In this document: piece after piece, positions 1 to 22,756 of the stretch
Layout: every line of letters starts with the position of its first letter
Numbering within the stretch: position 1 is the first letter of the stretch
Assembly: GCA_014871385.1 (NCBI GenBank)
Contig: CM026427.1
Location: 2,352,068-2,416,067 of the forward strand
Length of the DNA stretch: 64,000 nucleotides
Direction: 5' to 3'
Origin: Ceratodon purpureus
Taxonomy: Eukaryota; Streptophyta; Bryopsida; Pseudoditrichales; Ditrichaceae
Notes under the pieces: model-generated
What the model was told of the DNA's origin: nothing
What the model saw: the letters and a program-made list of their open reading frames with translations, nothing else
Databases searched by the model: none
Position numbers and translations under genes: made by a program

Positions 1-3000
1 GCGTCCACATTCTTGGGACTCATGAGCAGTTCCCCAGATGTGCCCTTCTTGGAGGAAGTCTTCTTCGAAGCAGCCTTCCGTTTGCCCTTCCCAGAGGACT
101 CCTCCCCTTCCTGAACCCCTGAGGAATCACGGGATAAGTTACCCACAAGAGAGGAATCCTGAGCAGTACCATCGGTCTTACTTCTCTTCAATGCTCGTGT
201 CTTGACCAGAGGGTTCTCATCTGGGCCAATCATCCGAGTTGCGCCCTTCACACCCTGAGTGACGAATGCGATTGACTTCCCTGTCAACTTGGTCTTGGCA
301 GAGGGGTTAGATGAGGTTTGCTCGTCTGCCGTCGGCTGCCCGCCGACGGCAGCAGGAGGAACATGCCCTTCAATGCTCACTGCAGGCTCCTGGGTTGGCT
401 TCTGGACACGGAGAACCACTTCATCGTCAGGCCTCGATGCTAGAGGAACCTGCATCTTCTTTGGAGGCCCCGCCTGGTCTAGGTCACGTTCTGGCTCGGC
501 GAGAGGAATCTCCTGCTCTTGAAATGTAGGAGAAATAATACCGAAGCTGAGGGAGTCAGTTCCTTGCTCCCCTATAACTTGCGACAGCGGTGGGTTCACG
601 TAACGAGGATTCAATTCTTCCAGTGGTACCACGTCGGGTTCTGGTTCATAGTCTAAGTCATCCGTGTATCTGTCCTCTACCTCTGCATCTCCAGTTGGAA
701 TGCGAGCCTCAGCTTGGTCGTCCTCGTTTCTTGGCTGTTCCTCAGCATCTCCAGCTTCATCTTCAACGTCTGGGTCGGGTACATCTGGTGGCTCCTCGTC
801 GACATCGTCGTCGGAGTCCAGATAAATCTGTGAGGGAACCCCCGCAGTCTTCCCCAAACCCATACATCCACCCTTCCCGACCAAATGGGCCTCCTCCGCA
901 TTCACACCCAAGTCGGCAGCCGTGAGAGTGCCAGTCCTGCCTCTAGCAGAGGCGGGGACAGACGGCCCGGCCCCAGACTGCGTGGTCTGAACTGGAGCTT
1001 CGACGAGCACGTTATAAACGCCCGGAATGAAAGTCATATTCCGAACCCGACAGTGCGCTTCGTATCTCTCTTCCTTGGTACGCACGATCTCAATTACAGT
1101 CAAATGGTTTTTCTGCAATAGAACAAGACGAAACGGTTAAGGAAATCTTCTACCCAAGAAACACGAAGGATGCAATGAGCGTCGGCTGCCCGCCGACGAT
1201 CGGTGAGCAAATAGCGAAGGCACCAGAAGAGACAGCAGTGACTTACCAGAGCGAGGGCCGTGACGTTCCCCCCTCCCCAGCAATTGATCACCCGAATGTC
1301 CTCAAACTGCATCGCTTTCTCCAGAAGAGATTGGAGGAAAGAGTAACTAGTGTGGCAGTCTCCATTAGACCAATCCTCCCCAAGACCATCTTCTCCTTCG
1401 TCCACATAGGGAGGAAGCGGACGTTTCAAACCAGTGAAGTCCGAGAAGGTATTCCATGCATCCCCGGGCGTTGTTTTTGGATACATAACGGACACATGAA
1501 CCTTGGGTCTAGAGTCAATGAGAGAACTCCTTTGAAACCCGGCGGAACTATCAGGGAAGTATTGCATAGTATGAACCGTCCACGAACTACTCGTCAGCCT
1601 TGACACGCCTTGCCAGAATGTAAAATTTACACTCAGCATCGAGTAGCCACAAGGATGGGGTGACAAGCTTATTCACCTTAATTGTATCTACCTTCTTATC
1701 CACCTGAATGACCTCCTCCTCCACCTCACGGTGAATCCTCTCAGCGACAGTTATAACGTGTTGTTGTCGCATGCTAGGCATCTCCTTTCCCGCTGGATCG
1801 TAGCCAAAGACTACGAACATCTCATACTGCGCCTTGTTGAAGGAGAATGCTCCGCGAACGTCAAGAGCTGTGCACACTTCACCTAGGTCCTGTGCAATCC
1901 GGGCATCGAACTGTACAGACGACTGCGAAGACTGGTCCACATCCGACTTCCAGTACTTCTGCACAATGTCTTTGAAGAATTCTGGTGTTGGCCCGTGCGA
2001 CGGCGTGAGCGGATGATTCCGTCCCTTAAGCCACTCCTTCCCCTCAGGACTATCTTCCAAGTCAGCCCGAATATTACTAATCATTGTATCATTGAACCCC
2101 TTCTCGACTTGAAGGGAATTCCAGTCATCCATGCTCCACTCAATATGCTTCCCAGTCCCTGGCTTCCTAAGTGCGAAGCCCCTGTAAATACACATAAGCT
2201 CGTTTCGGACAACATACTCGTACTTCACACGAAAACACCAATTCTCCAATGATATTCCGTCCCGTTGAACCACCTCTTTCCCAGTGACCTTGAGGTACAC
2301 TTTAAGGTCCAGAACTTCCTTGGCCAGCCTCTTGCATTCGTGGTCCCGAAGACCGATCATGTACTGCATGTCGTTGAGTGTTATGTCCCGGCGGGCTGGC
2401 TTTAGGGGAAATCCTGGTTTTAAACCGTCCTCCCCGATGATCCTCCCCTCCTCCCAGGCGTTGAACACCAGTTGCCACTCGTTGTATGTTTCGTCAGAAA
2501 CGAAGACTAAGGGCAGCTTCAAGGTTTGGGACGTAGGGGTCTTTCCGAGAATCGGACTGAGGTACTCCTTGCAGAACTCCTGCAAGGAAGAAGAAAATGA
2601 AATCGATAAATAAATCCCACAATTACAATATGGAAAACCACCTGAGCGTCGGCGGGCCGCCGACGACTTTCAACTACATGGAAACAACAGGAAACGAGAA
2701 AGATGTAAATTACCTTCCATGCGCTGTAGTCATCTTTCTTCTCGATCCTCCCCCTCTCGATCCATTTGGCGCGCATCTTCGCCAGCTGGGACCTAAAACT
2801 TACTTCGGCGACTTTATCCTTCACCTCGATGTTTAATGCGTTAGAGACCTTAATGACGGTATCCTTGTTATCAGCATATACAGGAATGATATCGTGGTTA
2901 AGGTAATACTGCCGCATAGGAGAGTCCAGTGGTTCCTTCTCTCCCAGTTCTCGACAAGCCTCAAACGTGTGCTGGCCCCCAATTATGTACCAGCGGACGA

Positions 3001-4428
3001 GCTCATCTTCATACCAAGGTACCTCCTTAAATGTGCCGTCAGCCTGTTTATGCGCAATCTTGATATTTAGGGCCGGCAAAGGATTAAGAAGTCCTTCCAA
3101 GCCTTTAAGCTTAATCTCGCCCGTCACTGGAACCTTTACTCTGGGGTCACCACTCATAGGAAGGCAGTACAGCTCGGGCTTCTTCCGGATTGCTCCAAAT
3201 CCTTTGTAGAAAAGACTTATCTGATCCTGCCTCTTCCTGAATATCGCTCTGTACTTAAATTCGTCAGGAGCTATGTGTATCCTGTTATATGGAATCTGAC
3301 AAGAAAGGGCACGTTGCCCGTTGGGGAAGCAGTGCCCAAGTCCCTCCTCCAACGTCTGGTACATAGCAAGGACGTCGGTGTCCTTTGTTTTGGAAGTGAG
3401 ATTGTTTGCGAGCATGAGAGCTTCCGCCACGGTCTGCTTTTTCTCTTCCTTCTTCCCACCTTTCTTCTGTCTCCCACCCTCGCCCTCAGCAGCCGCTGCC
3501 TTTCCCTTCTTCTTTCTCGATGATCCCCTGTCGCCTGTGTCTCTCCGGTCTCGGGGGTGACTGTACCAGTGCCCGCTTCTACAGCAGACTTGCGGCCGCC
3601 TCTTTTCTTTGGTGAAGGCTTAACCGAGTTCTTCGTCTTCTCTTCCATCACTTTGTCCCCGAGCGTATCAATCACGTCGAGTATCTGTTCAACTTCAGGG
3701 TTCTCGCCCCTGCCCCAAGTAGCCGCTTCCTGTACTTCCTTAGAGCACGAGCCGTCCATGCACTTCTCAGTCGGAATTACAACCGCGAAGCAGTCCACTG
3801 GTGTGCCCTCCGCGACAGGAACCGATGCAAACACCAAGCACACGTTGTCCTTATCCTTGCAATCCCTGGCTCCAATAATCTCGAATCTTGGTCCACCCGC
3901 CATTTGCTTCTGACCTATTTTGGTCACGAAGCCCAGCGACGTGGGAGTGTCACGCCAGGTGATGCCCCACTCCGTTATCCTCGAATCACCGAGGAATGTC
4001 ACCCTCGGTTTCAAGCCCCGTGCTTGTATTCTTCCTTCAGGATCAACAACCTTGTCACAGAGCCACCGTAACCCATTTGGTTTTGCGGTGGAGTCGACCA
4101 TCGCCCTGCAAAATCAGAATCACAAGATTAGACCATCAGATTCTCACTCCATCGGCGGACAGCCGACGGGGCGGATGGACACGCCCTCCCCATCGGCGGA
4201 CAGCCGACGGGGGGGATGGATACGCCCTCCCCATCGGCGGACAGCCGACGGGGGGAATAACCCATGCGAGAGAACACAAAACATGAAGGACAAAAGAAGG
4301 GGTGGCGTCGGCGGACAGCCGACGGGAGGGACAAACCCATGGGAGAAAACGGAAACATGAAGGACTCAAGAAGGGGAGCGTCGGCGGACAGCCGACTGGA
4401 CAACTTACCCACTCTCGGAGGCTGCCAT
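1..4428 (-). CDS. ParB-like / methyltransferase-like protein of a two-gene mobile module (partial, 4 exons)
   Basis: Exons read on the minus strand are 4428-4409, 4105-2714, 2579-1247 and 1112 to beyond the left edge; all three introns are GT-AG and phases match (2, 0, 0). The ATG at 4428 begins MAASESG and splices in frame to AMVDSTAKP. Exon 2 has a Lys/Arg/Ala-rich linker, then a segment with IIGGQHTFEACREL (about 2940-2980) that resembles the ParB/sulfiredoxin signature. Exon 3 ends and exon 4 begins around CWGGGNVTALAL/KNHLTVIEIV, which resembles the SAM-binding glycine loop of N4/N6 DNA methyltransferases (inference). Exon 4 is open for about 370 codons, acidic then Lys-rich. Two frame changes are needed to read it through, one near 3.43-3.54 kb in the basic linker and one near 1.59-1.65 kb, so this copy looks slightly decayed. 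Each intron carries a 17-nt hairpin. It diverges from the gene at 5438. Function unproven; DNA binding or modification is the likeliest role. Confidence 0.6.
331..347 (+). repeat. Short GC hairpin, copy 1 (exonic)
   Basis: GTCGGCTGCCCGCCGAC: six-base arms GTCGGC/GCCGAC around TGCCC, extended by GCC/GGC outside. It lies in exon 4 of the minus-strand gene and is read in frame as AVGGQPTA, so it does not break the protein. Confidence 0.85.
1181..1197 (+). repeat. Short GC hairpin, copy 2 (intronic)
   Basis: An exact GTCGGCTGCCCGCCGAC within intron 3 (1246-1113) of the minus-strand gene. Confidence 0.85.
2648..2664. repeat. Short GC hairpin, copy 3 (intronic, symmetric form)
   Basis: GTCGGCGGGCCGCCGAC, a variant with an almost fully palindromic loop, within intron 2 (2713-2580) of the minus-strand gene. 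Confidence 0.85.
4151..4396 (-). repeat. Cluster of five hairpins in nested tandem repeats, intron 1
   Basis: Five hairpins in the opposite orientation (TCGGCGGACAGCCGAC core) lie at 4151-4167, 4192-4208, 4233-4249, 4307-4323 and 4380-4396. The first three sit in a 41-bp tandem repeat; the last three sit in a second tandem repeat of 73-74 bp that includes a CCCATG..GAGA and ACATGAAGGAC block. All are inside intron 1 (4408-4106) of the minus-strand gene. The hairpin is part of the amplified unit in both repeats. Confidence 0.85.
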
Positions 4429-4452
4429 GGCGTCGACGGATGGCCTTTCACC

Positions 4453-4483
4453 GTCGGCGGATGATCCACGAACAGCAGCCGAC
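4453..4483. repeat. Hairpin with enlarged loop
   Basis: The GTCGGC and GCCGAC arms are separated by 19 nt instead of 5, giving an enlarged-loop variant just upstream of the minus-strand start. Two half-copies (CAGCCGACG) follow within 70 bp. Confidence 0.6.
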
Positions 4484-4714
4484 GCGCGCAGGTGAAGGAG
4501 CCGACGCCCTCAACCCTAGCAGCCGACGCAGGAAAACCTAGCAGCCGACGCGACCTCTGCGGAGCGCTGAGAAGAGGACAAAAGAGAGCTGAAAAAGAGA
4601 AGGCTGGAAATGAGGAGGAAATGTCGGGGGTGGCGGGTGTATACCCTGCAGACCCCCACCTCCCGAGACTGAATCGTCACGCCCGATGGGTCATGACGTA
4701 TGGCTATGTACATA

Positions 4715-4732
4715 CCATCCATGCATGGATGG
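4715..4732. promoter_or_regulatory. 18-bp perfect palindrome with RY core
   Basis: CCATCCATGCATGGATGG is identical to its reverse complement. Its centre CATGCATG matches the RY element bound by B3 (ABI3/FUS3-type) factors in plants. It lies in the divergent spacer; a role in regulating both genes is inference. Confidence 0.5.
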
Positions 4733-5321
4733 TCATCCCTAACATCCGTCCCATCACGCCACGTAGGATGATGATGGGACGTGTTTTGACTTTTTTTCAA
4801 TCCGTCACCAAGTCATGATGGCGTGGGCATGTGATGTGACAGCTGCTCCAATCGCCATGTTCAAATTCGTAATAATGTACTAACATTGTTCTGTGACGGC
4901 GGGGGTATCTCGCCGCCATGATGGGATCTTGATCTGTCCAAGGCGCGCAAAATTGAATTCGATTTTGGCGCCAATTTGTACTCCTGGGAATTCATAACTA
5001 ACCCCCCGTCAGATGCGCATACTTCATTCTATTTCTGTCATTGCACTTTCGATTCCCTCTGAGAGTGCTCCTAACGCACACGTTTCCTGAGAGGACCGTT
5101 ATTATTCTCGCATGTGCTTAACTGTCCCGCACCTTCTGTTGCCGTTTCTGTTGTCTTCGTTTATTGTTTCTGATTGGACGGTTGAGAGGAGTCTCTGATT
5201 GGACAGGTTAGGGACATCATACTACTTCTCAACTAAGGTCCCCTGCAATTTCTGTCAGCGGACGTGTCCGTCATCGTCGGCGGATGCTATTTCTGTGCAC
5301 ACTCCGAGTTGTACGATCCGC

Positions 5322-5338
5322 GTCGGCTGCCCGCCGAG
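5322..5338 (+). repeat. Short GC hairpin in 5' leader
   Basis: GTCGGCTGCCCGCCGAG has one mismatch at the last base and lies in the leader of the plus-strand gene. A half-site GTCGGC lies at 5276. Confidence 0.8.
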
Positions 5339-5399
5339 TCGTCTTCGTTGTTGGCGGATACATTTTACTCTGTCGGCGGGGACATTTCCCGTCGACCCT

Positions 5400-5416
5400 G
5401 TCGGCTGTCCGCCGAC
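5400..5416 (+). repeat. Short GC hairpin 22 bp before the plus-gene ATG
   Basis: GTCGGCTGTCCGCCGAC, with C-to-T in the loop, ends 21 bp before the ATG at 5438. If transcribed it would place a stable hairpin beside the start codon. Confidence 0.8.
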
Positions 5417-5437
5417 GAGGTCTTCATCTTTTATCCA

Positions 5438-8400
5438 ATGGAAGTAGAGCCGATCCAGACGTTTCTAAGGAATGGCCGATCAGGGCGGTGGAAGGTTAAA
5501 AAGGGCGTTGTCGTGGCCCTTACTCATTCTGGGCTCTATTATGCAGGCAGGGCAGTGATCCAACGTGTTGTAGAATTTGATCCTATAGTGGTGATGGTAA
5601 AAGTGATTGAGGTTTCAGACAGCATGGAAATGAATATACCATTTCCGGATGAGGGTGTGATGTCCTTGAACAACTGCTTAGGACGCATGATATTGTGGGA
5701 CGCGGCCGACCTCAGGCCTTTCGGAGAGGTGGAAGACGATGACATCAACGCCGTCGGCTGCCCGCCGACTGATTGTTGAAGAAGATGTCAAGCCCGTTCA
5801 AGAATTCCTGGACCTCGCAGAGCAGATGGAAGTTGCGCTCCTTGAGGAATCCGGAGGCTCAAAGCGTTGTGTAGCCGCTGGAGTCATTATGGAGTGCTCT
5901 CCTAAAGGAACGTGGGAGGGGTTCTTGATTCCTCACAGCTTCTTTCTAATAGTGAGAGTCTCGTCCGTCAATCCAGAATTCTCTGAAACACCTGCTTTCT
6001 GCAAGTTACCGGATGTGTTAACGATCGGCTGTGCTGTGGGGCGATTGGTACTTTGGAGTGGATACAAGGTATGTCCACTTGTGAACGGCGCGTTGGCTGG
6101 CACATGTCCCGTCGGCTGCCCGCCGACGGAACCTCACTTGGGGAACGACAATGAAGAAATTGATGAAAGCAACTCCGCTCCGTCTCAGCAGGATCTGGCG
6201 ACTAGGTCTCCAATGAATATCAGCAGTGACGACGATGTGTCTAAACAGGGGGAATCCGACGTAGAAACAGATGATCATTGTTGGGGTCCGGATTCCGGGA
6301 CCTCGGGTACTCCTTCCACTCCAGATGCTTCTTATCCTGACCGCCACCTCTGGAGAAATAGGTATGTCGAACTTCTTAATGATGACCTATCAGTCCGTGG
6401 TAGAGCAATGATTCAAGTATGTTTACCGGACGAGGCATGTGATGATGAAGTCTTAGGGGATACAGAGGTTGGGGTTCTCTTCGTCTCTGAAGACGATCAT
6501 CTGCAGATGACAACTCTCAGATGGCGTCTGACTCACACTCGCTTAGAAGGGGGTCACCTTCTCTCTGATATAATTACTTACTGCTCCGAGAATTTAGCAG
6601 ACGCCGACGCGGACGTTGGTCTGGATGGTGTCCCGAAGAATGCCTATCGATCGGTGAGGAGGAAAATTCGCGAAAAAGATGACGTCTCTTCCACTAAGCT
6701 TCGTCGAATGGTTGTCCCTGCTGAATGCCGCTTAGTGAGCTCAAAGCGGTGTTGCAAGGACCGATGTTGCCAGACTTTTAGATGGGAAGATACTGTGAGT
6801 ATTCATCGTAGATTTTACGCAACAACATTCGAGGCGAGGCGAGAGATGTCCTTCGCTGTGCAAGGGCACTTACATACTGTACCCGGCAAGCGGAAGCTCT
6901 ATGTTACTCTTGCGAACGTTGACGTATGTGAAGTGGCGTGGTATATCATTCACGGAGTATCGAAATCCGCGTACTACAGCTACAAGGCTTCGGCCCGAAG
7001 TGGCCGTGTCAATGGGAGTCACGGAAATTCCGGTGTACATCGTCCCCAGATTCACACAATCCAGGCCCGCGCGACGTTGACCACTATCGTTAATGAGAAT
7101 GCCGACCAAATGCCCAATGAGTTTCGGATGATTGGCAAGAAGAGAGTGGCCGCGCTCAAAGTACTCCCGTCTGCGATGAACTGGAATCACATGCGCGAAA
7201 TGGCCAACGCCGTAAGTTCCTCCTCATCTTCTTTCACTTTGGATAGTTTACTGAATTGTAGTGATTACTATCGTCGGCTGCCCGCCGACTGGATGACGAA
7301 CTTGCCAACTGATCGGCCTCACTCTGTGCTATTCAGGTCAATGAGCAGTGCAACGCGAAGCTGATTTCGCAGTCCTCCGTTAGTCGCATGAGGAAGGAGT
7401 ACTTCCGCAACGTTGAGGTCAAGGCAGTAGGAAGTAATTTCTCCAAGTGCACTGAGTGTGACTTCCTCGTTGAACTCATTGCCAAGTATCCTAGAGGGTC
7501 GGACGAGTGGCAGAGCTTGACAGAGGATAGGACCAGGCATTTGAACTATCAGCGAGCTTGTCGCAACATTTATTACGGATGGACAACCCAATCTATACAG
7601 AGTCCTACTGAGTTCCTATGCATCATACACGATAAGATGGACACATCGAAAACAGCGATCCCCCGCATGCAACGTATCACGAAGGCTACGGCAGGGCTTG
7701 GTCAAATTCCGATTTCCTGTACTGGAATGCTGACTCACGGTCACGGAGATGGCGCCTACGCACACTATGCAACTGCCCTGTGGCCAGGAGACCCAAATTT
7801 CACAATCTCCTCGTTGTGCAGGGTATTCCGTGCCTTGGAGAGACTACCTGTCCGGGAGTCAAAAGCACTCTTCGAGGCACCGCCACAGAATGAATTCTTT
7901 GCAGCGCTAATGCATGGATCGTCACGTTGCATCCCCTCAATTCCACCCTCTAGAGATGAACCACTCACTCCACCTCTGCCTGGTAGGCCTGCTGTTCCTT
8001 TGCCGAAGAAGTTGTATCTCCAGCTTGACAATTCTGCGAAGGACAACAAGAACCGGTTTCTTCTAGCATTCTGCTCGTTGCTGACGGCGAGGCAAATATT
8101 CAAGGAAGTTACAGTTGGTTTCCTGATTGTGGGACACACACATGAGGACATCGACGCCCACTTCAGTCACCTGTCGAAACTCATTAAGCGAAAGAACACA
8201 TACTGCCTTGCCGACTTTATGAAGGCATTCATGGATTCTCAGAAGACAGTTGCCTTTATTCCAGAGGTTGTTTAGGAAGCGGCAGACTTCAAAAGTTATG
8301 TTGCTGATTTTCATCACGACGGAGGTAATGCGATAGAAGGTCACAGTGAAATGCATCTTTTTAAATTTTATGTAGTGGATGATGGGGAGGATGCGGGGTG

Positions 8401-9349
8401 GCCCGTGATGAGGTACAAGAAGCGTGCAACTGATCCGTCATGGCTTCCACCTGGCAAACCCGTGAAAATGTGGAGGGCAGACAAAGAGGGTAAACCACGT
8501 TTGCCCGTCGGTGATCCCAAACCGGTTCCTCATAAGCACTTATGGGGTAGTGTTGAAGTCGATGAGGGCAAGAGGAACGCGGATAAAGAGGTGGCAAGGG
8601 CAGCGGAGTGTTCAGAGAAGAGAAATTTCATTAAAAATGGATTATCTAAGTACATTGAGTACTGGAGAACTGGCATGGCTCGGGATAAGAAATACGCACA
8701 AGACATGTTACCATATGTACTGTATTGGGAGCGAATTTTAAAGGAGGTCAACGAGCCACTGCCCCCCAATTCCGCCACCTTACAGGAAGGATTCTGGCCT
8801 ATCTCAGACTGGAAGCGGGACCACGTCACCACATTCGATGCAGAGGACGAATATATACCGGATCCGGATATTCGTCCCGGTGACGAGGATGAGGTGGAGC
8901 CCTATCCTTTCTGTGGTCCGAAAAGCTCTAGGCCGAAGTCTGTGTTTAATCCATATCGTGACGTTTTACGTGGCGATTGGGTGTTCTGTCGTCCGTGTAA
9001 GGAAGACCACCTACCCATTTGGATGGGTAGGGCGATAGAGCCTGTTATAACAGAGCCTGGTTCTAATTACGGTAAGTTCAAGGTTGAATGGTGGACTCCG
9101 ATGAAGGGCAAGAAGGAAGGTAAGAAGAAAGTTGCGAGAGAGTGTTGGACAAGACGGTGGGAAAGGGAGTTGACTCTTGCGGAGTGGGTGGAGTGTAAAT
9201 CCGTTGTATACACTCATAGGACCAAGAAAACTACGCATGAGGGGCCCCCAAAGTCCCATCTAATACCCGAAGATGTTGTGATTGCTGCCATGGCAAACTT
9301 CGAATCGCATGGAATCTCGATGAACTGGAATGACGAGGAGGAAGACTAG
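5438..9349 (+). CDS. DUF7869-like putative DDE/RNase H-type nuclease of the module (2 exons, interrupted)
   Basis: Exon 1 is 5438-7211 and exon 2 is 7337-9349, with a GT-AG phase-0 intron. The N-terminus holds two weakly similar segments, each ending in a GR-x-(I/V)LW motif (about 5440-5730 and 5780-6080). A Cys-rich stretch (KRCCKDRCCQ, near 6750) follows. Exon 2 has IIHDKMDTSKTAIPR (Asp codons 7631 and 7640), LQLDNSAKDNKNR (Asp at 8027) and GHTHEDIDAHFS (8132-8164), a pattern I associate with the DUF7869 family; the spaced acidic residues suggest an RNase H/DDE fold (inference). A frame change occurs exactly at the hairpin at 5753, and a single in-frame TAG lies at 8273, after which the same frame stays open for 358 codons to 9349. 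The C-terminal part is basic and Trp-rich. The stop codon abuts another hairpin. Probably a transposase-like enzyme whose copy is lightly damaged. Confidence 0.65.
5753..5769 (+). repeat. Short GC hairpin at a coding frame change
   Basis: An exact consensus copy in exon 1 of the plus-strand gene. The upstream frame reads AVGCPPTDC then stop, while the downstream frame reads SAARRLIVEED and stays open. The hairpin marks the point where the reading frame switches, as expected if it was inserted. Confidence 0.8.
6111..6127 (+). repeat. Short GC hairpin read in frame (VGCPPT)
   Basis: An exact consensus copy in exon 1, translated as VGCPPT without breaking the frame. It follows the second N-terminal segment, as the 5753 copy follows the first. 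Confidence 0.8.
7273..7289 (+). repeat. Short GC hairpin, intronic
   Basis: An exact consensus copy inside the only intron (7212-7336) of the plus-strand gene. Confidence 0.85.
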
Positions 9350-9365
9350 TCGGCTGCCCGCCGAC
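9349..9365 (+). repeat. Short GC hairpin fused to the stop codon
   Basis: The last base of the TAG stop (9347-9349) is the first base of an exact hairpin copy, so the element starts within the stop codon. It could act in 3'-end formation; this is inference. Confidence 0.8.
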
Positions 9366-9555
9366 GATTGTGATCTTAGCTGTAGAAGACGTAGCTTGTG
9401 ATGGTTTTCTCTGTAAACGTTATAGTTGAATATTGTAAACACTGTGATTCCTTCGAATAAGAATTGTATTTTACCGTAGACCCAATACTAGTCATGTATT
9501 ACGCTTTGTCTTCTATTTGTTGTTCTGATGCCTTACTTTTCCTTCTTCGGTGGTC

Positions 9556-9572
9556 GTCGGCTGTCCGCCGAT
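9556..9572 (+). repeat. Short GC hairpin, 3' flank copy
   Basis: GTCGGCTGTCCGCCGAT, with one loop and one arm difference, in the 3' flank of the plus-strand gene. Confidence 0.75.
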
Positions 9573-9670
9573 GCCTCTAACCATGTTAGATAAGCATCAT
9601 GAACGGTGACTTTGTGAGGCTGGTCTATATTGTATGGCCTGTGATTTTTACGGTGGACACTGGTACTCTA

Positions 9671-9687
9671 GTCGGCTGCCCGCCGAC
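9671..9687 (+). repeat. Short GC hairpin, 3' flank copy
   Basis: An exact consensus copy preceded by CTA, so CTAGTCGGC begins the element as it does at 9347 and 11060. Confidence 0.8.
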
Positions 9688-9999
9688 GCTTTCCACAACA
9701 TTGGTAGAACCACTATGCGCTTTGAGAAACTGGGAAAAAAAAATTATCCATTTCATTATATTCTTATCGGAGTACAACGGTAGTGTTCCGCCCTTTACAT
9801 GTTACTTTGTATTGTGTATACATCAGAGATGCCACTACTTCTAAAGCCTCAGTAACAAATGCTAACCATGAATTCTACAACTATCCGAGTGTGTGAAGCA
9901 GCTCTATTGAAAACGAGCTGGAAAGTTCTAACACACAGTAATTCACCCTAAAGCCAAAAAACCAAAAAGCTGCATATGGTCGCCAACGCCATGAAGCGA

Positions 10000-10521
10000 T
10001 CAGTCCTTCGCAGTAGACTTGGCTCGGACAGCACTACACCCAGTATCGACGGATGGATGCACGGATCCAAACGACGAATACGTGGACTGCGGGCTTGCGT
10101 TCCCTCCGCACCACTGATCTTGGCCAGAGCACCGACTTCCAGCACCCTCCAAGTTGTCGTATGCTTCGCCAACAATGCGGAGCCACCCTGCAGTTGACAT
10201 GGTTTGCGTTGACACCTCCCCTGTGTGGCTGAAGTGAACGCTGCCAACACTCTCGGACTCCTCAGACTCCTCGGACTCCTGGAATGTCAGTGGGAAGGCG
10301 ATGCCGGAAGCGTCAGAGATCTCCAACAACTCAATGGTGTGAGCAATACTCCAAAACCACTCCGCACCTGGCTGCAGAAGGCGTGTGATGTATTTGAAAG
10401 CTGGAATGGCGGTGTTGCGAGAACGGGCGACCACCGCCCTATACCATGGCCGGAGCTCCTCGAGGTCAGCCGGTGTCTCCTGATAACCCAGGCATCTCGC
10501 ATTGCTACCCCGCCTCCCCAT
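10000..10521 (-). CDS. Unrecognised open frame, possible gene fragment
   Basis: A 173-codon frame starting MGRRGSN with an ordered-looking first half (WYRAVVARSRN, PGAEWFWSIAHTIELLE) followed by a Ser/Glu repeat (SEESEESES) and a Ser/Gly-rich tail. No domain is recognised. The plus strand is also open over much of the same stretch (10225-10614), so either or neither frame may be coding. No convincing splice partners were found. It may be a captured or decayed gene piece at the edge of the hairpin module. Confidence 0.25.
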   Translation of the reverse strand: MGRRGSNARCLGYQETPADLEELRPWYRAVVARSRNTAIPAFKYITRLLQPGAEWFWSIAHTIELLEISDASGIAFPLTFQESEESEESESVGSVHFSHTGEVSTQTMSTAGWLRIVGEAYDNLEGAGSRCSGQDQWCGGNASPQSTYSSFGSVHPSVDTGCSAVRAKSTAKD

Positions 10522-10680
10522 AACGACAAAATATTGGACAATATGCGACTAACTTCTACAGTATGCGACCTTCTTCTACAGTATCCAGTTGGAGTTCGTC
10601 TAGTAAACTGGTAAACGTTCTAGTAATCCACTTCTCTAGGGTTTTGTGGACGACTAATTGCCAACGTCGACCTAGTCTAG

Positions 10681-10980
10681 TAGCCCCTACTCTCCTACTC
10701 GGCTGGTAGCCGACTAGGACTAGCTTACTCATCATTTGCATCATTAGGACTAGGACTTATTTACTCATCATTAGGACTAGTAGCCCCTACTCTCCTACTC
10801 GGCTGGTAGCCGACTAGGACTAGCTTACTCATCATTTGCATCATTAGGACTAGGACTTATTTACTCATCATTAGGACTAGTAGCCCCTACTCTCCTACTC
10901 GGCTGGTAGCCGACTAGGACTAGCTTACTCATCATTTTTATCATTAGGACTAGGACTAGGACATCATTTTTATCACTGGG
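10681..10980. repeat. 100-bp tandem repeat, three units, with internal hairpin
   Basis: Units begin at 10681, 10781 and 10881 with TAGCCCCTACTCTCC, giving a period of exactly 100 bp. The first two units are nearly identical; the third diverges after about 55 bp into TTTTTATCAYTRGGACTAGGAC repeats. Each unit carries a hairpin TCGGCTGGTAGCCGA (10699, 10799, 10899) flanked by CTA..TAG, plainly related to the module hairpin. Much of the rest is built from TAGGACTAGGAC and TTACTCATCATT blocks. Confidence 0.9.
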
Positions 10981-11062
10981 ACTAGGACTTATTTACTCAT
11001 CATTTTTATATGTATTTCAAATTCCAGAGGTCGGTTCAGTGAGGAAGAGGTTGGCTCTCCTA

Positions 11063-11079
11063 GTCGGCGGCCAGCCGAC
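11063..11079. repeat. Rightmost hairpin, long-armed variant
   Basis: GTCGGCGGCCAGCCGAC with arms extended outward to CTAGTCGGC/GCCGACTAG. It is the last member seen; none was noticed from 11.1 to 64 kb. Confidence 0.8.
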
Positions 11080-11293
11080 TAGAAAGGACTTCCATTCGTT
11101 GTGACCGTGAATACTGTTCATTCTAAATGACGACTCCGGAGTCCTCACAGACGGACACCCCAATGTGAGATGCCTGGCAGTCCTGTCCACTCAGCGGGTC
11201 GCCGACGATCTTCCCTTCACCCGCTTCACTTCACAGATCCACATTTTGCAGAGCAAGTATTTCCTTTTATTAGAACAGATAGATTTCTAAGGA

Positions 11294-11332
11294 TAGGGTT
11301 TCTAGGGTTTAGGGTTTCTAGGGTTTAGGGTT
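11294..11332 (+). repeat. Interstitial telomere-like tract
   Basis: Five TAGGGTTT-type repeats (TAGGGTTTC and TAGGGTT alternating) of the Arabidopsis-type plant telomere TTTAGGG. It may be a short interstitial telomere or a telo-box cluster like those in plant promoters. It supports a plant origin. Confidence 0.75.
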
Positions 11333-11969
11333 CTCAGTCAGCCACTCGCCGAGAGATTCGGCCATGACAGTGGGACTTGGATGTCCTCTATTCAACATTA
11401 TATTAAAATTCACTCAAATGATTTTATCCCTTGTAAGCGGAATGCATTTTTTCATAAATATTTGACATCTTTGTCTTTAAATTTGAGGGATAACACATGA
11501 ATTGGACGTCTACTGATGATGCAAAGTAGTCCATAATTGAGCGTTTTGTCCATAATTACTTAAATACCCCTTTTTAAATCAACAATAAAAATTGAGCTCT
11601 AAATTGCAATAAACCACTCTATTTTATGAACTACTTAGCAGTTTAGAACTTTCATATATAATCAAGAACAATAAAATAGTTTTAATCCTTGAACATCACA
11701 GACTTGGTTGGATTCTTTCAAGAGTATTCAACAACATTTTCACCTTCTAATTTCATTTAAAAAATATCAATAATGCCATAATGAAATAAGCATCTTTCAT
11801 AAATTCGACCTCAAAAGTATCCACTTCTTATTTTTTTTTAATCACATATATGTTTACTGAAGTACAATATGTTAACAGGAATGAATATACCAAAAAAATC
11901 ACTTCAGTTTCTAAATTTAGAATGCCCAACGATGTCCAAACATGTCAAAATCCGGTGTCTCCAAACATG
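11333..11969. other. AT-rich intergenic sequence
   Basis: No coding frame or repeat is supported. The right part is probably the 3' untranslated region of the minus-strand AP2 gene; a small repeat of the phrase AACATGTCAAA/AACGTGTCAAA lies at 11935-11998, overlapping the gene's last codons. Confidence 0.5.
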
Positions 11970-14095
11970 TCAATATGTGTCTCCAAACGTGTCAAACCAT
12001 GAAAATCCTGCGAGGTCGTCGTTTAAGTCGAACGATTGGCTCATGAAGTTAAGGCTGTGAGAACCTCGTAACCACTGACTACCGGAGCCTCCTTCTGCCA
12101 GCGTCGCAGTTTCTGCTTCGTCGCATAAGTTCCCATCAAGCTGTTCGATGTAGGTGGGAGTGGAGGCAGCGGCTTCAAGGAGCCATTCTTGAACCATCTC
12201 ATTCAGCTCGTGCGCATTCATCGCCGCCGCCCGATCGACCTCAATTTGCCTGATAGTCTCGCCATCTGAGGTCGAATTGATGGACGTTCTCGCAACCTCC
12301 CTCGCCAGTTTAGCAATGGCTCTATGCGTCTCTTCGAGGGAGAGCTTCGAGGGAATTCTCTTGAGCATGCGCGGCGAGTCTTCGAAATTCAGCGGCAAAT
12401 TTCTCTTGCAGCACAAATTGCCAATGTCGAAGGCGCGAGCTGCCTCCTCCGCTGTGTCGTACGACCCGAGCCAAATCGTCTTCATGCACCGCTTGGGCCG
12501 AATTTCCGTTACGTACTTGTTCAGCTCCTCTCGATACCTCACTCCGCGGTATTGTGGCACAACTGTCCGCGACGAACCAAGCGGCATACTGCTCACCAGG
12601 TTCCGTAACGCATTCCGGCGCGATGAAGGAGAGAGCGAAGCTGACTGAGCCACATTCTCGGAGAACGCATTGTTGGTTCTCCCCCCGGCAGATCCCGACG
12701 ACGACTGATCCGTAGACGTTCGCTGGCTCTTCCTCCATGTAGTAGCTGGAGATCCTTGAAGGCTGGAACTGAAGATACTACTGGCCATGGACCTCACAGA
12801 GGAAGCTGATGGGTGGCTGATTGGAGGCCCTGCTCCTAAGCTGAAACTGTGGTCTATATCAAGGCCCCAAACATACGAATTACCACTAATGGTTACATCA
12901 ACCAATTTAACAACGTCAGATGGAACAGACATAACACTAGGTTCACCATCGTCCACGCTCCATCGAATTTCTACTCGGCATGTAAAACCCGCAATTCCAT
13001 CTGGCAACTCTTTATCACCAAAAACCAGGGTCACGTACCCTAGACGTCGGAGAGACGCCAGTGACTCTTCATCTGCACTTGAACCCAGTGCTCTAGTTGC
13101 CAAACACAAGGGCTTAGGCATAGGTTCCCTGACCAGCCTCCTGTAGGAAGCATTTACCCACTTCACCCGAGTTCTCAGATCTGTGATAACATGTGGCATG
13201 TCCACAGTATCCAATCTTTTCTGAACAGCCCCTAAATCCTCCTTTAAAGGAACAATATGCGAGTCTAGAGTTTCTATGCTTTGCACAGTCATGGTAGATC
13301 TCACATCAATCATCTCCAAGGCATCGGACGAGGTGTGAGTATCCACTTCGTGAATGACCCTTGCAGGCTCATCATCCTTCTGTTTCATAGAGTCCTGCAA
13401 GAGCACTGAATCAGTGCACGTCTGACCATTTACTAGCAAACTATTTACATGCTCCGACTTTCAACGCAACACACATAGAGAAGTAGCATGAAATTCCTGA
13501 ACTGGTTCCCCACGACAAAATACACGCCGGGTTGAGAAATGAATTATCAAGAAACAATGTTCAGTTTTATCCAACTCTTGGAGGATATTTATGAGAAGGA
13601 AAAACAAGAGGCTACCGGTTTCAATTTGATAAGGAGATGACAATGAGAAGTTAGATGAGTTGTAACGAAGATGCTGCGACACAGCGCCTGAATAATTTGC
13701 AGGAGATTCATTTGACGTAAAGGGCTAGGTAACAGGACATAACCTTTTTAGGTGGATTTTGGTTAATGTTGTAATACTTTTTTACCAGTTACCACCTCAA
13801 TTGTTAGACCTTATTCAATTTTCTTTACTGCATCAAGGGTCTCAAAAAAACCACTATTTCTTCAGAACAATTGTCACTATTTCATACGGGTTCCATGAAG
13901 GATACTAAATGAAAATTTTGAATGAAAGAAAATCAGCTTACCAGTGATGGCAATGATAATTTAAACCTACGCTCCTTTGAGTCCTCGCTTCGTTTGGTTG
14001 TAACGTGTGTTAGGAGTTCGCCGTAAGACGTGCCGGTTGCAGGAGACAGTTCATATCCAGTCTGACATTTAAGTTCAAAAGAAAGTGCACCTCCA
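11970..14095 (-). CDS. AP2/ERF-domain protein with N-terminal DUF7950-like region
   Basis: Two exons are supported, 14095-13942 and 13394-11970, joined in phase 0 across a GT-AG intron (donor CTG/GTAAGC, acceptor TTGCAG/GAC). The exon at 14095 itself follows an acceptor (TCTCTTACAG) in phase 2, so more exons lie upstream. From about 13160 to 12840 the sequence shows VKWVNASYRRLV, FTCRVEIRWS, VPSDVVKLVD and YVWGLDIDHSFSLG, matching what I know of the plant DUF7950 region. The AP2 domain (about 12555-12370) shows YRGVRYREELNKYVTEIRP and WLGSYDTAEEAARAFD. The tail holds an acidic/aromatic C-terminus (DDLAGFSWFDTFGD) that could activate transcription. A nuclear DNA-binding regulator is the likely role. 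Whether it belongs to the same transcript as the hydrolase upstream is unresolved. Confidence 0.75.
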
Positions 14096-17300: not shown

Positions 17301-19004
17301 TTACAATGGCACTTCATATTTGAGAGGAAGCTTACCAGGTGAGTTGAGCTGTACAGTTTCACAATCTTTACTACCGAAGGCCTCATCTTTCTGACTCTTC
17401 AGTATTTGGCACTGGGCTAGCAGAAGGAGTGTAACCACTTGCTCAAACCTAAACGTGAGGTTGCCCTCGAAACAACTTGATATGCAAAATCTCAAAATTT
17501 GTGGAATTGCATCTGATATGCTAGGCCTTGTGTCTGCATCTGTATCAAATGGATCCTCGCATTGTCGCCTTCCAGTCAACACTTCCAAGCAAAACGAAGC
17601 AAAACGGTGCACATCATGCGTCTTTCTCTCATGAGAATCATCATCCACAGAATATCCACCCCCACTCAACTTAATTGTGTACTCAGGGTGTCCGTCCTGC
17701 AACATCGTATCAGAATTTCTGAACAGGACTTTGGAACAATTCAGGTGTGGATATGTGATGCCCAAATCATGAAGGTAAAGCATGCCCTTCGCTGTCTGCA
17801 GCATGATGTCAACCGCCATAGGTAGCGAGAGAAGAGATTCATTTGCTCTCTTATGCCTTGCGAGGAGATCTGTAAGATCACCCTCCATCAGCTCCATCGC
17901 AAGAAATAAGTATTTGTCTTTTCTCCAATAATGCATCAATTGCACAACATGTGGATGAGAAAGACGAGCGATAAGAGGCTGTTCACCGTCACCATTGTCA
18001 GCTACTCTCTTCAGGGCACAGTCTACTCCTTGGATATTGGTTCTAATCACCCATGATCCCGTCTGGCTCACCCCTAGAATATCTCGGGTCAGGTCTAACG
18101 TGAGTTCCTCTTCTATCAACGGTGACGGCGCCTGGTGTACAAAGCTTGCTGGTATGCCTTCGATGATGAAACCTGGGAAACTTGCATTTTTAATAGCCTC
18201 AAGAGCCATTTTCGCCCTGTATCCATCTTCCCCCAGTATGTTGCCAGACTCAACGTTCCACTCGAAAATGTCATTACCCTCTGATCCGTATCTCAAATCT
18301 ATTACCCGCTGCCATGTCTCAAATCCGTAAGATGGAAAGTGCCTTTCATAAGATGAAATTAGCGAACTCTGAGGGTTCACTAATGATACACCCTCGAGCT
18401 CTTTGCCTTTCATATAAAGCACATTACCATAAATCTCGGAACCAGCAAACCTTTCTCCTTCCTGTAATGCTGCAACCATTGTCCACCAGCGCACATCCAA
18501 GAGAATTTCAAGGAAATGTTCTCGCCACTTAGCCAACACTGGTTCATGATTGTGCATTCCCAGGCTCCACCACTCTTTCGCCAAGGCCTCGGTCTGTATA
18601 ACAGCACGGTGTAGTTCTCGACGAACTGGTTTGTGCCCCTCCAAGGCTGGTTTAAAGCCATGAAGTAGTCTCTTAGTTTCGTCAAGTTGAGACAACAGAA
18701 TCAACCCTTGGTTGTTACCCTCTTGGCTCACGCACATGGGTGCAAAATCCGCCGCCCAGGCTGCGCCCCCGTCCTGTTGCTGTGACAAGCGGCGCTTCTT
18801 TGGGGGCTCGGGAGAGAGACCTCGCGCGAGCTGCCCGGGCAGGATCAGCGCGAGCTGCCTGCGCTCTCTGCCGTCGTTCCATGTGCGATAGCCTTCTGCA
18901 ACATTGTTTGAGGTTGTCCAAGAATCTCGGGGACTCAATTGAAACTCTATTCGGGTTATGGCTCGCAGGGTTTGCCCCACATAGTCGTCCATCACAAATT
19001 TCAA
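17301..19004 (-). CDS. Pseudokinase with N-terminal helical region
   Basis: A 567-codon frame starting MKFVMDDYVGQ. The first 110 residues include a basic PPKKRRLSQQQ nuclear-signal-like stretch in locally GC-rich DNA. Residues about 130-200 are helical with EHFLEILLDVRWW, the same pattern as in the kinase at 21176. The kinase-like domain keeps the beta-3 lysine (DCALKRV) and the C-helix/hinge area (LAMELMEGDLTDLL), but HRD is replaced by HLN and DFG by SGG, so phosphotransfer is unlikely. The frame passes a strong donor (CCTG/GTAAGC at about 17336) shortly before its stop, so the true last exon may be spliced, perhaps to exon-like pieces at 17.15-17.21 kb. It is head to head with the active kinase and on the same strand as the hydrolase. 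A scaffold or regulator is inferred. Confidence 0.65.
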   Translation of the reverse strand: MKFVMDDYVGQTLRAITRIEFQLSPRDSWTTSNNVAEGYRTWNDGRERRQLALILPGQLARGLSPEPPKKRRLSQQQDGGAAWAADFAPMCVSQEGNNQGLILLSQLDETKRLLHGFKPALEGHKPVRRELHRAVIQTEALAKEWWSLGMHNHEPVLAKWREHFLEILLDVRWWTMVAALQEGERFAGSEIYGNVLYMKGKELEGVSLVNPQSSLISSYERHFPSYGFETWQRVIDLRYGSEGNDIFEWNVESGNILGEDGYRAKMALEAIKNASFPGFIIEGIPASFVHQAPSPLIEEELTLDLTRDILGVSQTGSWVIRTNIQGVDCALKRVADNGDGEQPLIARLSHPHVVQLMHYWRKDKYLFLAMELMEGDLTDLLARHKRANESLLSLPMAVDIMLQTAKGMLYLHDLGITYPHLNCSKVLFRNSDTMLQDGHPEYTIKLSGGGYSVDDDSHERKTHDVHRFASFCLEVLTGRRQCEDPFDTDADTRPSISDAIPQILRFCISSCFEGNLTFRFEQVVTLLLLAQCQILKSQKDEAFGSKDCETVQLNSPGKLPLKYEVPL

Positions 19005-21175
19005 CTCTTACATTGAAAGATCCCTTGATCCACCACTTTCGTTGGAAGAGCCGAGAGAAGGACCAGCCCTGCAACATGTGCGGGTGTACTGTCCATCTTC
19101 CGCATGGACGCTATATCGTATTCAACCAAACTTAAACCTAATCTAAGACTGTCGACTGGCTCTCTCCAAATAGTGCAAACGTGCAAACCATCGACTCATC
19201 TCACAAGTGGACTCTCAGTATCTGCTAATGAACCATCCAAAGGCACCACACCAAACTTCCTGCAAGACAGAAACATGCAGATTTCAAATCTCGAAGGACA
19301 GAACCATGCATAATTGAAATTACCTTTAAGGATTCTAGCATAATCGATCGCCCTTGACGTGTGATTCCTCTGAAACAACTCCAACGAGTAACGTCTGGAT
19401 ACAACCAACTTACTTTATCCCATTCGCAAAAAACCTCTACAAGCTGCGGCGGAAACGGGTAATATAACTTCAGAAACGAACAGTACTGATCCCCGCAGCC
19501 ATTTAGTGCTCCCTACGTTTCCATCTAGAGCTGGCCTTCTTGTTCGACAATCTACAGCAACTGGAACTTAGGTTTTGAAGGGTGGACCAAGACTTCGGCA
19601 TGTTACTCGGTACGCCACCCATCTCGAATAAGTAAATATTATTTTCACAGATGAGAGTATCTGCACAAAAGAAGAACCTTAGACGTGTGAAAAGCTCACA
19701 AGCGTTCACCGTCTGATTCTACTTACAGTAGGATATTCCACCCGGCGACCCGGCGATGTTGTTTACCATTATTCACATGCGATCAAGAATTTGCTTTGCC
19801 AGGGGTGGGTGTCGCAAGGATTCGGAAGGGAGAAGACAAGGGTTTCGTTCCGCTTGTTCGACGCATGAGGAGAAGCGATGTGCAGACTCGGGGAACAACA
19901 TTTCTAGACAGGTTTGGATTCTGTGTCTCTAGTTCTACTCACAGTACTACTTCTTACTGCTTCACCTTGCGCACCTTGGTGCGCTTAGGAATTGAAAAAC
20001 ATTGGAAGTCATTTAGGTCTTACAGACGATTCCGATCTGGAAAGCAGTACGCGATTCTTTGCACAGAAAGTCACCGTATTCTTTGCAGGTTGTTCCATCT
20101 AGAAGTGTCTGCCCATGATAATCTCTTCCTAGATAGGTTAAACCTCCTAAAGATGGCTTCTTTAGATTCTGAATTCGCGCTTTTCTTCTTTGTCATATTC
20201 TTGGTCTTCTACAAAACACATGAATTTTTTTATGGCTACCAGCTTGATGATCCAGCTAGTAGAGGCACGGTTCAATGTGAGACTGAGAAGATCGTGTTGG
20301 AACACACCTGTGTCGCCTCATTATTTTGACTTCACTTGTGTATGCTTGTGGTAAGCGGCCCAGACGGTGCTTCGTGAGTCAATGGAGTCTCTGGTATTTA
20401 GCAGTGGTATATGGATCCGACCCTAGTTTTTCTATTGTATGGCATCTAGTTGTCGAGTTATTTGATTGATAGCTGTACCAAGGCACATTGGAAGTGATCT
20501 GGACATTTGATTCCAAGGATTGAACGTGGTACTCATCAATATTAAGGGAGGGTTAGCTATAGCCTACACACTCTTTCCTTCTCGATCTGTCGCACAATAT
20601 ATAGAGAATTTGATGGCTTCCAGACTAGCTTTTATCCTCCTCTTTCCACTTTGAAATATCTCTGCTCAATCAGCCAAGTTGCAGAAACTTAGGAGCTAGC
20701 AAAGCCTACCTCCAATGTTACAACTGGTGATCCAGGGGTTTATTGTTTCTAATCATTCTGTTTCTGTAGATCTCAGGGCATCCATGCAAGCGGAGGCTCC
20801 TCGCAACTAGCTGGCTTTCAAGTGTAGCTCACTTTCATTCTCAGGTTGGTGGGAACATTTCATACTTCAAATATTCCTCTAGATTTCATGGCGCTGTCCT
20901 GTTTCTTTTTCCTGCTTTGGCTACTAGGATGTTGCGTTATACTAGTTCCTCAATCCGCAGTTCTAATTATACAGGTCTGCATAATTCCTCTGATCTGATT
21001 CATTTGCAAGAGGCTGCGTCAGATAATAAGATCTTCCAAGTGCAGCGCACTCTATCAAAAGTTAGGTCTGAAGCAAGTTGGCCAAATTATGATGCTTGAG
21101 ATGTCCATGAACCATTACTTGGTGCAAGAGAGGAGCCATGGTATAGTGCACGTCGCTTCTTGAGCTAAATTGGAC
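19005..21175. promoter_or_regulatory. Divergent spacer between pseudokinase and kinase
   Basis: 2.2 kb between head-to-head start codons. A plus-strand frame at 19796-20329 is open by chance or belongs to the kinase 5' leader. Donor/acceptor-like sites near 20.8-21.1 kb suggest a spliced leader. No conserved coding content was found. Confidence 0.4.
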
Positions 21176-22756
21176 ATGGAAGATCAATCTGGAACGTATG
21201 CAAGAACCTGGAGGAGCTTACGCAACAGCCTGGAGAGACTGACGCAAGTGAAGGAAAACTTGCATATCAATGTAAACCAATGTCTCTATATGCAATCAGA
21301 GATTTTGAAGCTATTGCAAGTCCTACAGCAAGACCAGAGCCCTGCAGCTCAAGAGTTCTATGGAATTGCGATGAGGGCTTTGAAACTAGTGGAAGAGTGT
21401 AGCACTGAGAGATGGCTTTTGAAAGCTGTGGAGATCGGCGACTGTCCTGAACACTTTGTCGAACTCTATCTCGACCTTCGCTGGTCATCGAATTTAGCCG
21501 GCCAGGAAATTGGGTGTGATCAGATCTCCATTTCCGATGTGCATAAAGTCAGAGACGAAGACAAGCTGAGTCTGATGTTCAAGGTGAAGGAAGTGCTTGA
21601 AGGAGAAAACAAAAACCACAAACGTTGTCAGGTAGAACAACAACTTGCTACAATTCTGAGAGATCGTAGTGGATGCTCTGACCCGTCTTCTCCACAGTCT
21701 CCACCTTATGATCTAAAAAGGTACGTCAGAGGGTTCAGGTTCAATCTAATTTCCGGGACTTTCTTCCAGCGAGTACAGGGAGGATCATCATTTGTTGTGA
21801 AATACCATTGGGTGTATAAAAAGGAGTTTGTGTTGAAGTTGGCACTCAAATCCTCTGATCGTGACATAATCAAGAAGGAGGCTGAGATCATGGAGAAATG
21901 TCGCCATCCATATGTTGTTGGAGTGGTGGGATGCTGGGAGGTAAAATCGTCAAAATCGTTCATGGTGATGGAATGCATGGAGTGCACTTTAACGGACCTG
22001 ATGCGCAGAAGACGCACTAGCACAACAAAACAAGGTTTCTCTGCCTCAGAAGCTATCGACCTCCTGCTTCCAGTCGCGAAGGCATTGCGGTACATGCATG
22101 GGAAAGTGAAGCCAATTGCACATCGAGACATTAAACCTGACAATATCATGTGTTCTAGGGAGCCTGAAGTCGGCACTAAACTTATAGACTTCGGGGATTC
22201 GGTGGAATTCGATCCAAGTTACTTCAGTCGCACGCCTGGTGTGGCTCTCACAACTAAAGAGTATGGCGTCACTGGCACAGCTGGATACATGGCTCCTGAG
22301 GTGAGGGATTGTAGAAATTTTGAGTATATTGATTCCTTGAAAGCCTTTCCATACTGTGATCTCTTGAAAGCCGATGTCTTTAGTTTTGGAATGGTTTTGG
22401 GAGAGCTTTTGACCTGGAAAACTCCAGAAGAGTCTCTTTGTGCTCAAGCACAGAGATCCCTGCCTAGATCAGAAATGAATGATCTTCTGAAACGTGGCTG
22501 GAGGCCACATATCCCACATGATGTACCAGCCTACGTTGCATTCGTTGTTGAGAGTTGTTGGAGAAAGTTCCCAACAACCCGGCCAAGTTTTGAAGATATC
22601 TGCTTGATGCTTCAGAATGCACAACATTTGCTTGGTTTGAACGTGAAAGTTGCCAATGAGGCCACATCATCCCTTGTATCATATACTGATAGTGACGCTA
22701 CGGACTGGCCCATCCCTGGCAAGTTCACGGTAAGGGAAATGCTGAACCTAGAGTAG
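21176..22756 (+). CDS. Protein kinase with N-terminal helical region (526 aa, single exon)
   Basis: The start chosen is ATG 21176 (MEDQSGTYARTW). Residues about 1-130 are helical with ERWLLKAVEIGD and EHFVELYLDLRW, resembling a region seen in bryophyte/lycophyte kinase families and in plant MLKL-like proteins (family assignment is inference). The kinase domain covers about residues 195-495, with the beta-3 lysine in FVLKLALK, HRDIKPDN at about 316, DFGD at about 338, GTAGYMAPE at about 365-373, DVFSFGMVLGELL, and CWRKFPTTRPSF in subdomain XI. All catalytic residues are present, so it should be an active Ser/Thr kinase. It has no signal peptide or membrane segment. It is head to head with a pseudokinase of the same architecture, 2.2 kb away, suggesting duplication and a partner or paralogue relation. 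Confidence 0.85.
   Translation: MEDQSGTYARTWRSLRNSLERLTQVKENLHINVNQCLYMQSEILKLLQVLQQDQSPAAQEFYGIAMRALKLVEECSTERWLLKAVEIGDCPEHFVELYLDLRWSSNLAGQEIGCDQISISDVHKVRDEDKLSLMFKVKEVLEGENKNHKRCQVEQQLATILRDRSGCSDPSSPQSPPYDLKRYVRGFRFNLISGTFFQRVQGGSSFVVKYHWVYKKEFVLKLALKSSDRDIIKKEAEIMEKCRHPYVVGVVGCWEVKSSKSFMVMECMECTLTDLMRRRRTSTTKQGFSASEAIDLLLPVAKALRYMHGKVKPIAHRDIKPDNIMCSREPEVGTKLIDFGDSVEFDPSYFSRTPGVALTTKEYGVTGTAGYMAPEVRDCRNFEYIDSLKAFPYCDLLKADVFSFGMVLGELLTWKTPEESLCAQAQRSLPRSEMNDLLKRGWRPHIPHDVPAYVAFVVESCWRKFPTTRPSFEDICLMLQNAQHLLGLNVKVANEATSSLVSYTDSDATDWPIPGKFTVREMLNLE

Follow-up and report, generated by a model that had tools for sequence, protein, structure and literature searches.

Why does one short palindrome recur throughout a pair of divergent genes and their immediate surroundings in the genome of Ceratodon purpureus? 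The question is raised by a stretch of 64,000 nucleotides (nt) from this species (GCA_014871385.1, contig CM026427.1, positions 2,352,068 to 2,416,067, forward strand), the whole of which is called the window here and is numbered from its first base. About the first 11.1 kb form a module of two genes, one of which encodes a DUF7869 protein, and this module is probably a DNA transposon, to judge from the DUF7869 gene and the layout. The 17-bp palindrome that marks it is module-specific within the window, non-random, and either selected or copied. The explanation that we favour, and to which we give an even chance, is that the 17-mer is a transposon-specific recognition site for a protein encoded by the element itself, working like VANC or TnpA sites and belonging to neither group.

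Abundance and confinement of the palindrome

An earlier note on this DNA had reported about 18 copies of GTCGGC-N5-GCCGAC. The family is real, and the count is corrected here to 12 exact sites in the window, with a further eight, 20 in total, when one arm mismatch is allowed. All 20 lie within 331-11079, and the remaining 52.9 kb of the window contains no exact and no one-mismatch site, as the earlier note had claimed. The sites are also far more frequent than in shuffled sequence. In 100 shuffles of the window, exact sites had a mean of 0.01 and a largest value of 1. When 200 dinucleotide shuffles were restricted to the first 11.1 kb, the mean was 0 for exact and 0.035 for one-mismatch sites, compared to 12 and 8 observed. 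Other perfect palindromes of the 6-5-6 type are not enriched in the module, which has one of them compared to 15 in the remainder of the window. The left limit at 331 is set by the window edge, as exon 4 of the left gene is still open at the first bases of the window.

The list of sites is nearly all-or-none. Compared to a 16-base consensus, 17 of the 20 sites have no or one mismatch, and three copies in a satellite have three; the next-best matches have four to five, a level that is also reached outside the module. A search of viral contigs with the 17-mer consensus returned 30 stretches with one match each, which were taken as chance, and neither the exact 17-mer nor the word DUF7869 was found in the literature text searched.

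Distribution of sites over the module

Gene models were built from open reading frames (ORFs) and splice signals, without transcripts. The left gene (1-4428, minus strand, running off the window) starts at an ATG at 4428 and comprises exons 4428-4409, 4105-2714, 2579-1247, and 1112-1. The right gene (5438-9349, plus strand) has its ATG at 5438, an intron at 7212-7336, and its stop codon at 9347-9349. All four modelled introns are of the GT...AG type, and each contains at least one site: five in 4408-4106, and one each in 2713-2580, 1246-1113, and 7212-7336. When 14 loci were placed at random in 20,000 runs, all four introns were hit in a fraction of 0.0008; the number 14 is that of the 20 sites with the intron-1 array and the satellite each counted once.

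In the left gene, exact plus-strand copies lie in exon 4 (331-347, read as VGGQPT) and intron 3 (1181-1197), and a plus-strand copy with exact arms and T7 changed to G lies in intron 2 (2648-2664). Intron 1 holds a minus-strand array of five palindromes (4151-4396) on 41- and 74-bp tandem units, with one mismatch at 4151, 4192, and 4233 and exact copies at 4307 and 4380. The sites from 5276 to the satellite are on the plus strand. Upstream of the right-gene ATG, the interval 5276-5416 contains a one-mismatch palindrome at 5322 and an exact one at 5400, together with half-sites at 5276 and 5372. Two copies are in right-gene coding sequence (5753-5769 and 6111-6127, both read as VGCPPT), and an exact one is in the intron (7273-7289). 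Three more occupy the end and 3' flank of this gene (9349-9687), namely 9349 (exact), 9556 (one mismatch), and 9671 (exact), the first of which shares a single base with the stop codon, the last base of that codon. A 100-bp satellite of 2.8 copies (10677-10957) carries the variant palindrome CTCGGCTGGTAGCCGAC at 10698, 10798, and 10898, and the last site in the window is an exact minus-strand copy at 11063-11079. The presence of the motif in introns, exons, divergent spacer, 3' flank, and satellite, as described in the earlier note, is thus accurate.

The exonic sites are 331, 5753, and 6111, and these three share one reading phase. Coding sequence makes up 69% of the 11.1 kb, so that about 9.6 of the 14 loci would be expected there, compared to three observed (binomial P 0.0004, or 0.002 when site 9349, which overlaps the stop codon, is counted as coding). 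The sites therefore avoid coding sequence and are enriched in non-coding DNA. Tandem arrays on the 41-, 74-, and 100-bp units hold eight of the 20 sites, and the other 12 lie outside such arrays. Between 5322 and 9671, the eight sites that lie within or next to the right gene all have the sense of that gene. Relative to the left gene, the array of intron 1 is in the sense orientation, and 331 and 1181 are antisense.

Architecture of the site

Since the arms are palindromic, the strand of each site must be picked from its middle bases. When oriented in this way, the 20 sites read GTCGGCTG-N-CCGCCGAC, with the consensus GTCGGCTGNCCGCCGAC, in which mainly the centre base is free. Eleven columns are invariant; T7 is kept in 19 of 20 sites, G8 in all 20, and C10 and C11 in 17. 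Altogether 16 of 17 positions are conserved, the asymmetric T7 included, and four of the five loop bases are constrained (17-20 of 20) nearly as strongly as the arms. The T7 exception is site 2648, and the exceptions at C10 and C11 are the three identical satellite copies (TGGTA). Conserved arms with variable loops had been proposed; the arms are indeed conserved, and the variety of loops is mostly a strand effect, as GGACA and GGCCA become TGTCC and TGGCC on the opposite strand. The middle TGNCC fits 12 of the 14 collapsed loci. The choice of orientation favours agreement, and by an arithmetic estimate five random middle bases would match TGNCC on one or the other strand in less than 1% of cases.

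The site can also be described as two inverted 8-mers, GTCGGCTG and GTCGGCGG. Counted on both strands, they number 35 in the first 11.1 kb, where shuffles had a mean of 0.56 and a largest value of 3, and one in the other 52.9 kb, where the shuffle mean was 1.03. Six of those in the module stand alone, at 4453, 4476, 4520, 4542, 5276, and 5372; each of the six falls in the spacer that separates the start codons (4429-5437). Upstream of the left-gene ATG (4453-4549), GTCGGCGG is found at 4453 and CAGCCGAC at 4476, 4520, and 4542, with a one-base variant at 4498. The copies at 4476, 4498, 4520, and 4542 sit on a 22-bp repeat, about two helical turns per period. Such lone half-sites suit binding by a dimer, or by proteins lined up on one face of the helix.

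The half-sites also bring in the main rival explanation. GTCGGC/GCCGAC is the core of the dehydration-responsive element/C-repeat (DRE/CRT), which is bound by plant AP2/DREB factors, and it is this shared core that gives the rival its standing. The element would use paired DRE cores for stress activation, and the clustering of half-sites and full sites 5' of both start codons speaks for such a use; an ORF with an AP2 domain also lies about 0.9 kb past the last palindrome, which may be chance. A host DREB-type factor needs little beyond the 6-bp core. Here, however, the cores form a fixed inverted pair with 16 of 17 positions conserved, and this holds in exons, introns, and the 3' flank as well; no full site occurs in the other 52.9 kb. 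We consider host AP2/DREB binding unlikely, although it is the strongest of the rivals.

A second possibility is that the palindrome acts as an RNA hairpin in transcripts of the element, for protein binding, splicing, or small-RNA production. Folded as RNA, seven 17-mers gave -7.9 to -10.7 kcal/mol; every modelled intron has a site, and the eight right-gene sites are in the sense of their gene. The outer-pair changes at 4151, 4192, 4233, and 9556 turn G-C into G-U in the sense of the gene that contains or precedes them, and so would still pair in sense RNA, which is counted on the RNA side; the same changes are C to T next to a G. The arm-preserving, compensatory changes that had been described were not recovered, as no two-sided change occurs in seven distinct rows. 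Only the outermost pair varies, with G-U in one row and no pairing in two, and paired cells amount to 95.2% compared to 95.9% in shuffles, no excess, with so little variation that the test is weak either way. A lone half-site cannot form this hairpin, which argues against an RNA role, as does the antisense orientation of 331 and 1181 to the left gene. A conserved loop would call for a partner that binds it, and an Rfam scan of 1-12000 at the gathering threshold gave no family match. A functional RNA hairpin thus seems to us improbable. A hairpin with a free loop is rejected on the orientation result and the lone half-sites, and the pair counts gave it no support. Of the proposed selection on, or copying of, a hairpin, what survives is a selected or copied palindrome.

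Copied unit or maintained site

Identity over 17 bp at 14 loci may also be due to a mobile or copied palindromic unit, of the type of mitochondrial GC clusters or repetitive hairpin elements (RHE), that spread inside the element. In favour of this, the flanks are unrelated: in 182 comparisons of 60-bp flanks, taken from both sides of the 14 loci, the best score was 19, the 99% level of random module 60-mers was 21, and none reached it. Copies in coding sequence also fit a mobile unit. Direct duplications were absent at 12 of the 14 loci, and the other two share only TA, which lies within a longer palindrome. The loci thus bear no mark of an insertion that duplicated its target, and outside the tandem arrays they show no flanks in common. 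In Allomyces, RHE-type elements reportedly occur without flanking duplications (PMC2800124), so the absence of duplications here does not speak against elements of that type.

Like yeast mitochondrial GC clusters and sponge RHE, the present sites are GC-rich palindromes in many near-identical copies. Unlike both, they occur in genes with GT-AG introns, have a conserved loop, and are confined to one module of the window; the lack of clear target duplications separates them from GC clusters only. In GC42 and sponge RHE, loops are reported to vary more than stems (PMC4478555, PMC2800124), whereas here the loop is not more variable than the stem. The sites also prefer non-coding DNA and are missing from the adjacent 52.9 kb. 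The earlier note had seen a resemblance to mitochondrial GC clusters; a mobile palindrome of that type is not supported, given the missing duplications and the loop conservation. For a mobile or copied unit in general, we see a small probability, ranking after host AP2/DREB sites and ahead of an RNA hairpin.

The two right-gene coding sites bear on the age of the motif. The start of the right-gene protein (5438-6100, plus strand) contains domains A and B, which from their sequences look like two related, diverged tandem domains; 12 of 2000 shuffles aligned as well locally, and one of 2000 globally. At a distance of 18 residues past the LW of each domain lies the same 17-mer, at 5753 for domain A and at 6111 for domain B. 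With the 17-mer excluded, ungapped DNA identity around these two sites is 23/60 upstream and 12/60 downstream. The site either predates the duplication of the domain and persisted amid change, or was put twice into a tolerant linker. We lean to the first, cautiously, as the similarity of the domains is modest. An identical palindrome at matching places in anciently duplicated, diverged domains would mean that the site is older than the duplication. A third copy of the domain (C) was considered and is not supported (315 of 2000 shuffles as good for A-C, 1251 of 2000 for B-C). The first tandem domain has one sub-threshold Pfam match, to the UvrD tudor model (E 0.1).

The host module

The right gene encodes DUF7869 (PF25273, E 3.7e-38, Pfam) and is a probable transposase gene. 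Its DNSAKDNKN and GHTHEDID stretches may correspond to DDE transposase motifs, which they resemble. Pieces of the left gene, including exon 4 (compared with Pfam only), gave no family above the cut-off, the best match being a sub-threshold FlbD (E 0.0039). Scans against PHROGs and NCBIfam returned weak matches only (best E 0.076 and 0.08), and a PDB sequence search gave nothing for the DUF7869 ORF and, for the left ORF, a single match to histone H2B at E 3.2. The GGQHTFEA stretch of the left gene is reminiscent of ParB/Srx proteins; family scans of the element proteins gave no ParB match. Structure models of both genes were too poor to use (mean predicted local distance difference test scores 33.9 and 31.1).

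Both genes look broken in this copy, unless sequence errors or missed introns are involved: the left-gene frame changes within 3271-3619 and 1587-1672, and the right-gene frame changes within 5691-5779 and is interrupted by a TAG at 8273-8275. On the left the element extends beyond the window, and its right end was not recognised, so that the window holds part of it. No second copy was found in the window: with the first 11.4 kb as query against the remaining sequence, blastn returned 0 rows at 1e-3, and nine ORF pieces likewise gave 0 rows in tblastn. For the DUF7869 ORF, relatives were confirmed neither in viral contigs (nine pattern stretches) nor in genome contigs (24), and none of nine stretches in viral contigs was confirmed for the left-gene ORF. 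A PF25273 search in one virus record and 14 controls had no match anywhere and is uninformative. Between the right gene and the satellite, a stop-to-stop ORF of 182 residues (10000-10548, minus strand) has no Pfam match and is possibly a third gene of the element.

A proposed recognition site for an element-encoded protein

Under the favoured explanation, the two inverted 8-bp half-sites (GTCGGCTG and GTCGGCGG) flanking one free base would be bound by a dimer. The DNA-binding protein would be encoded by the element, most likely by the unclassified left gene, and would coat the element; with many copies in introns, spacer, and 3' flank, such coating would set it apart from host DNA. By analogy with VANC, the likeliest use of the sites may be anti-silencing, in which promoters and introns would be kept open against the host, together with regulation of both divergent promoters. 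As a second use, the sites may be bound by the transposition complex. Conservation at 16 of 17 positions, the nearly all-or-none pattern of mismatches, the confinement of half-sites, the lone half-sites of the spacer, non-coding enrichment, the arrays, and a layout like that of VANC21 sites were all counted in favour.

VANDAL elements of Arabidopsis, which have a Mutator-type transposase, offer the closest working parallel in VANC, and TnpA of CACTA elements a second. The VANDAL motif is described as a 9-bp sequence, highly enriched in its family, that is bound by the element protein VANC, whereupon methylation is lost (PMC5735166, PMC10398659). According to PMC5735166, the VANC protein carries DUF1985/DUF287, and VANC21 sites are a short family-specific motif found mainly in introns, intergenic, and terminal non-coding DNA, often as tandem repeats. 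The present module likewise has a short motif that is confined to it within the window, lies in introns, intergenic, and terminal non-coding DNA, was multiplied partly by tandem repeats, and comes with a second gene beside the transposase gene. Unlike the VANDAL motif, it is a 17-bp palindrome, and its binding by a protein is predicted. Pfam on the scanned ORF pieces gave DUF7869 and neither a Mutator-type transposase nor DUF1985/DUF287, the left gene running off the window.

Several points weigh against this explanation. The left-gene pieces contain no recognised DNA-binding domain, and the structure models gave no help. Exons hold three of the sites, in contrast to the mainly non-coding location of VANC motifs, and the orientation is mixed (331 and 1181 antisense, the intron-1 array sense), whereas VANC motifs have one orientation. 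The ratio of observed to expected CpG is 1.08 in the spacer, 0.78 and 0.87 in the genes, 0.81 in the 3' flank, and 0.68-0.84 in the rest; as it is raised only in the spacer (1.08 versus 0.68-0.87), past hypomethylation is not clearly visible. The comparison also rests on a single copy of the element.

The parallel with En/Spm (CACTA) suggests a narrower role, in which the sites are subterminal repeats bound by the transposase or an accessory protein for transposition only. TNPA recognises subterminal repeats (PMC2613891). Both systems have an element-specific, short, repeated motif, here with half-sites and with some copies toward the right side of the module. The present sites, however, run through introns, spacer, and exons rather than being only subterminal, neither end of the element is defined, and the gene is DUF7869 and not tnp2 (PF02992). 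A role in transposition only is, in our estimate, the least probable of the explanations considered.

A more far-reaching form of the element-encoded recognition site is offered tentatively, and we regard it as rather doubtful: the DUF7869 element would coat itself through a dimer encoded by its second gene on 17-mers in each intron, in the promoters, and even in coding linkers, a new and independently evolved form of anti-silencing self-recognition. To our knowledge, anti-silencing that is encoded by an element and directed at a DNA motif specific to its family has been established mainly in the VANDAL elements of Arabidopsis. A VANC-like layout in an unrelated type of transposon would, if true, suggest that self-marking evolved more than once, and the sharply defined 17-bp site would be a compact, testable DNA address for it.

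Neighbouring DNA

Telomere-like repeats (unit TAGGGTTTC and relatives) lie at 11294-11332, just past the right side of the module. The AP2-domain ORF (11970-13460, minus strand; AP2 E 8.2e-11) also encodes DUF7950 (E 1.6e-08); it is probably a host gene and its proximity coincidental. Farther along, a CACTA-type element (30318-34680, plus strand) has Transposase_21 (tnp2, E 4.1e-65), DUF4218, and a sub-threshold DUF4216; the palindrome is absent from this element, including its tnp2 ORF at 30989-31795. The GT-AG introns, the neighbouring AP2 and DUF7950 domains, and this tnp2 element agree with the genome of a land plant. ORFs with protein kinase domains are found in the flanking DNA at 17301-19007 (minus strand) and 21164-22756 (plus strand).

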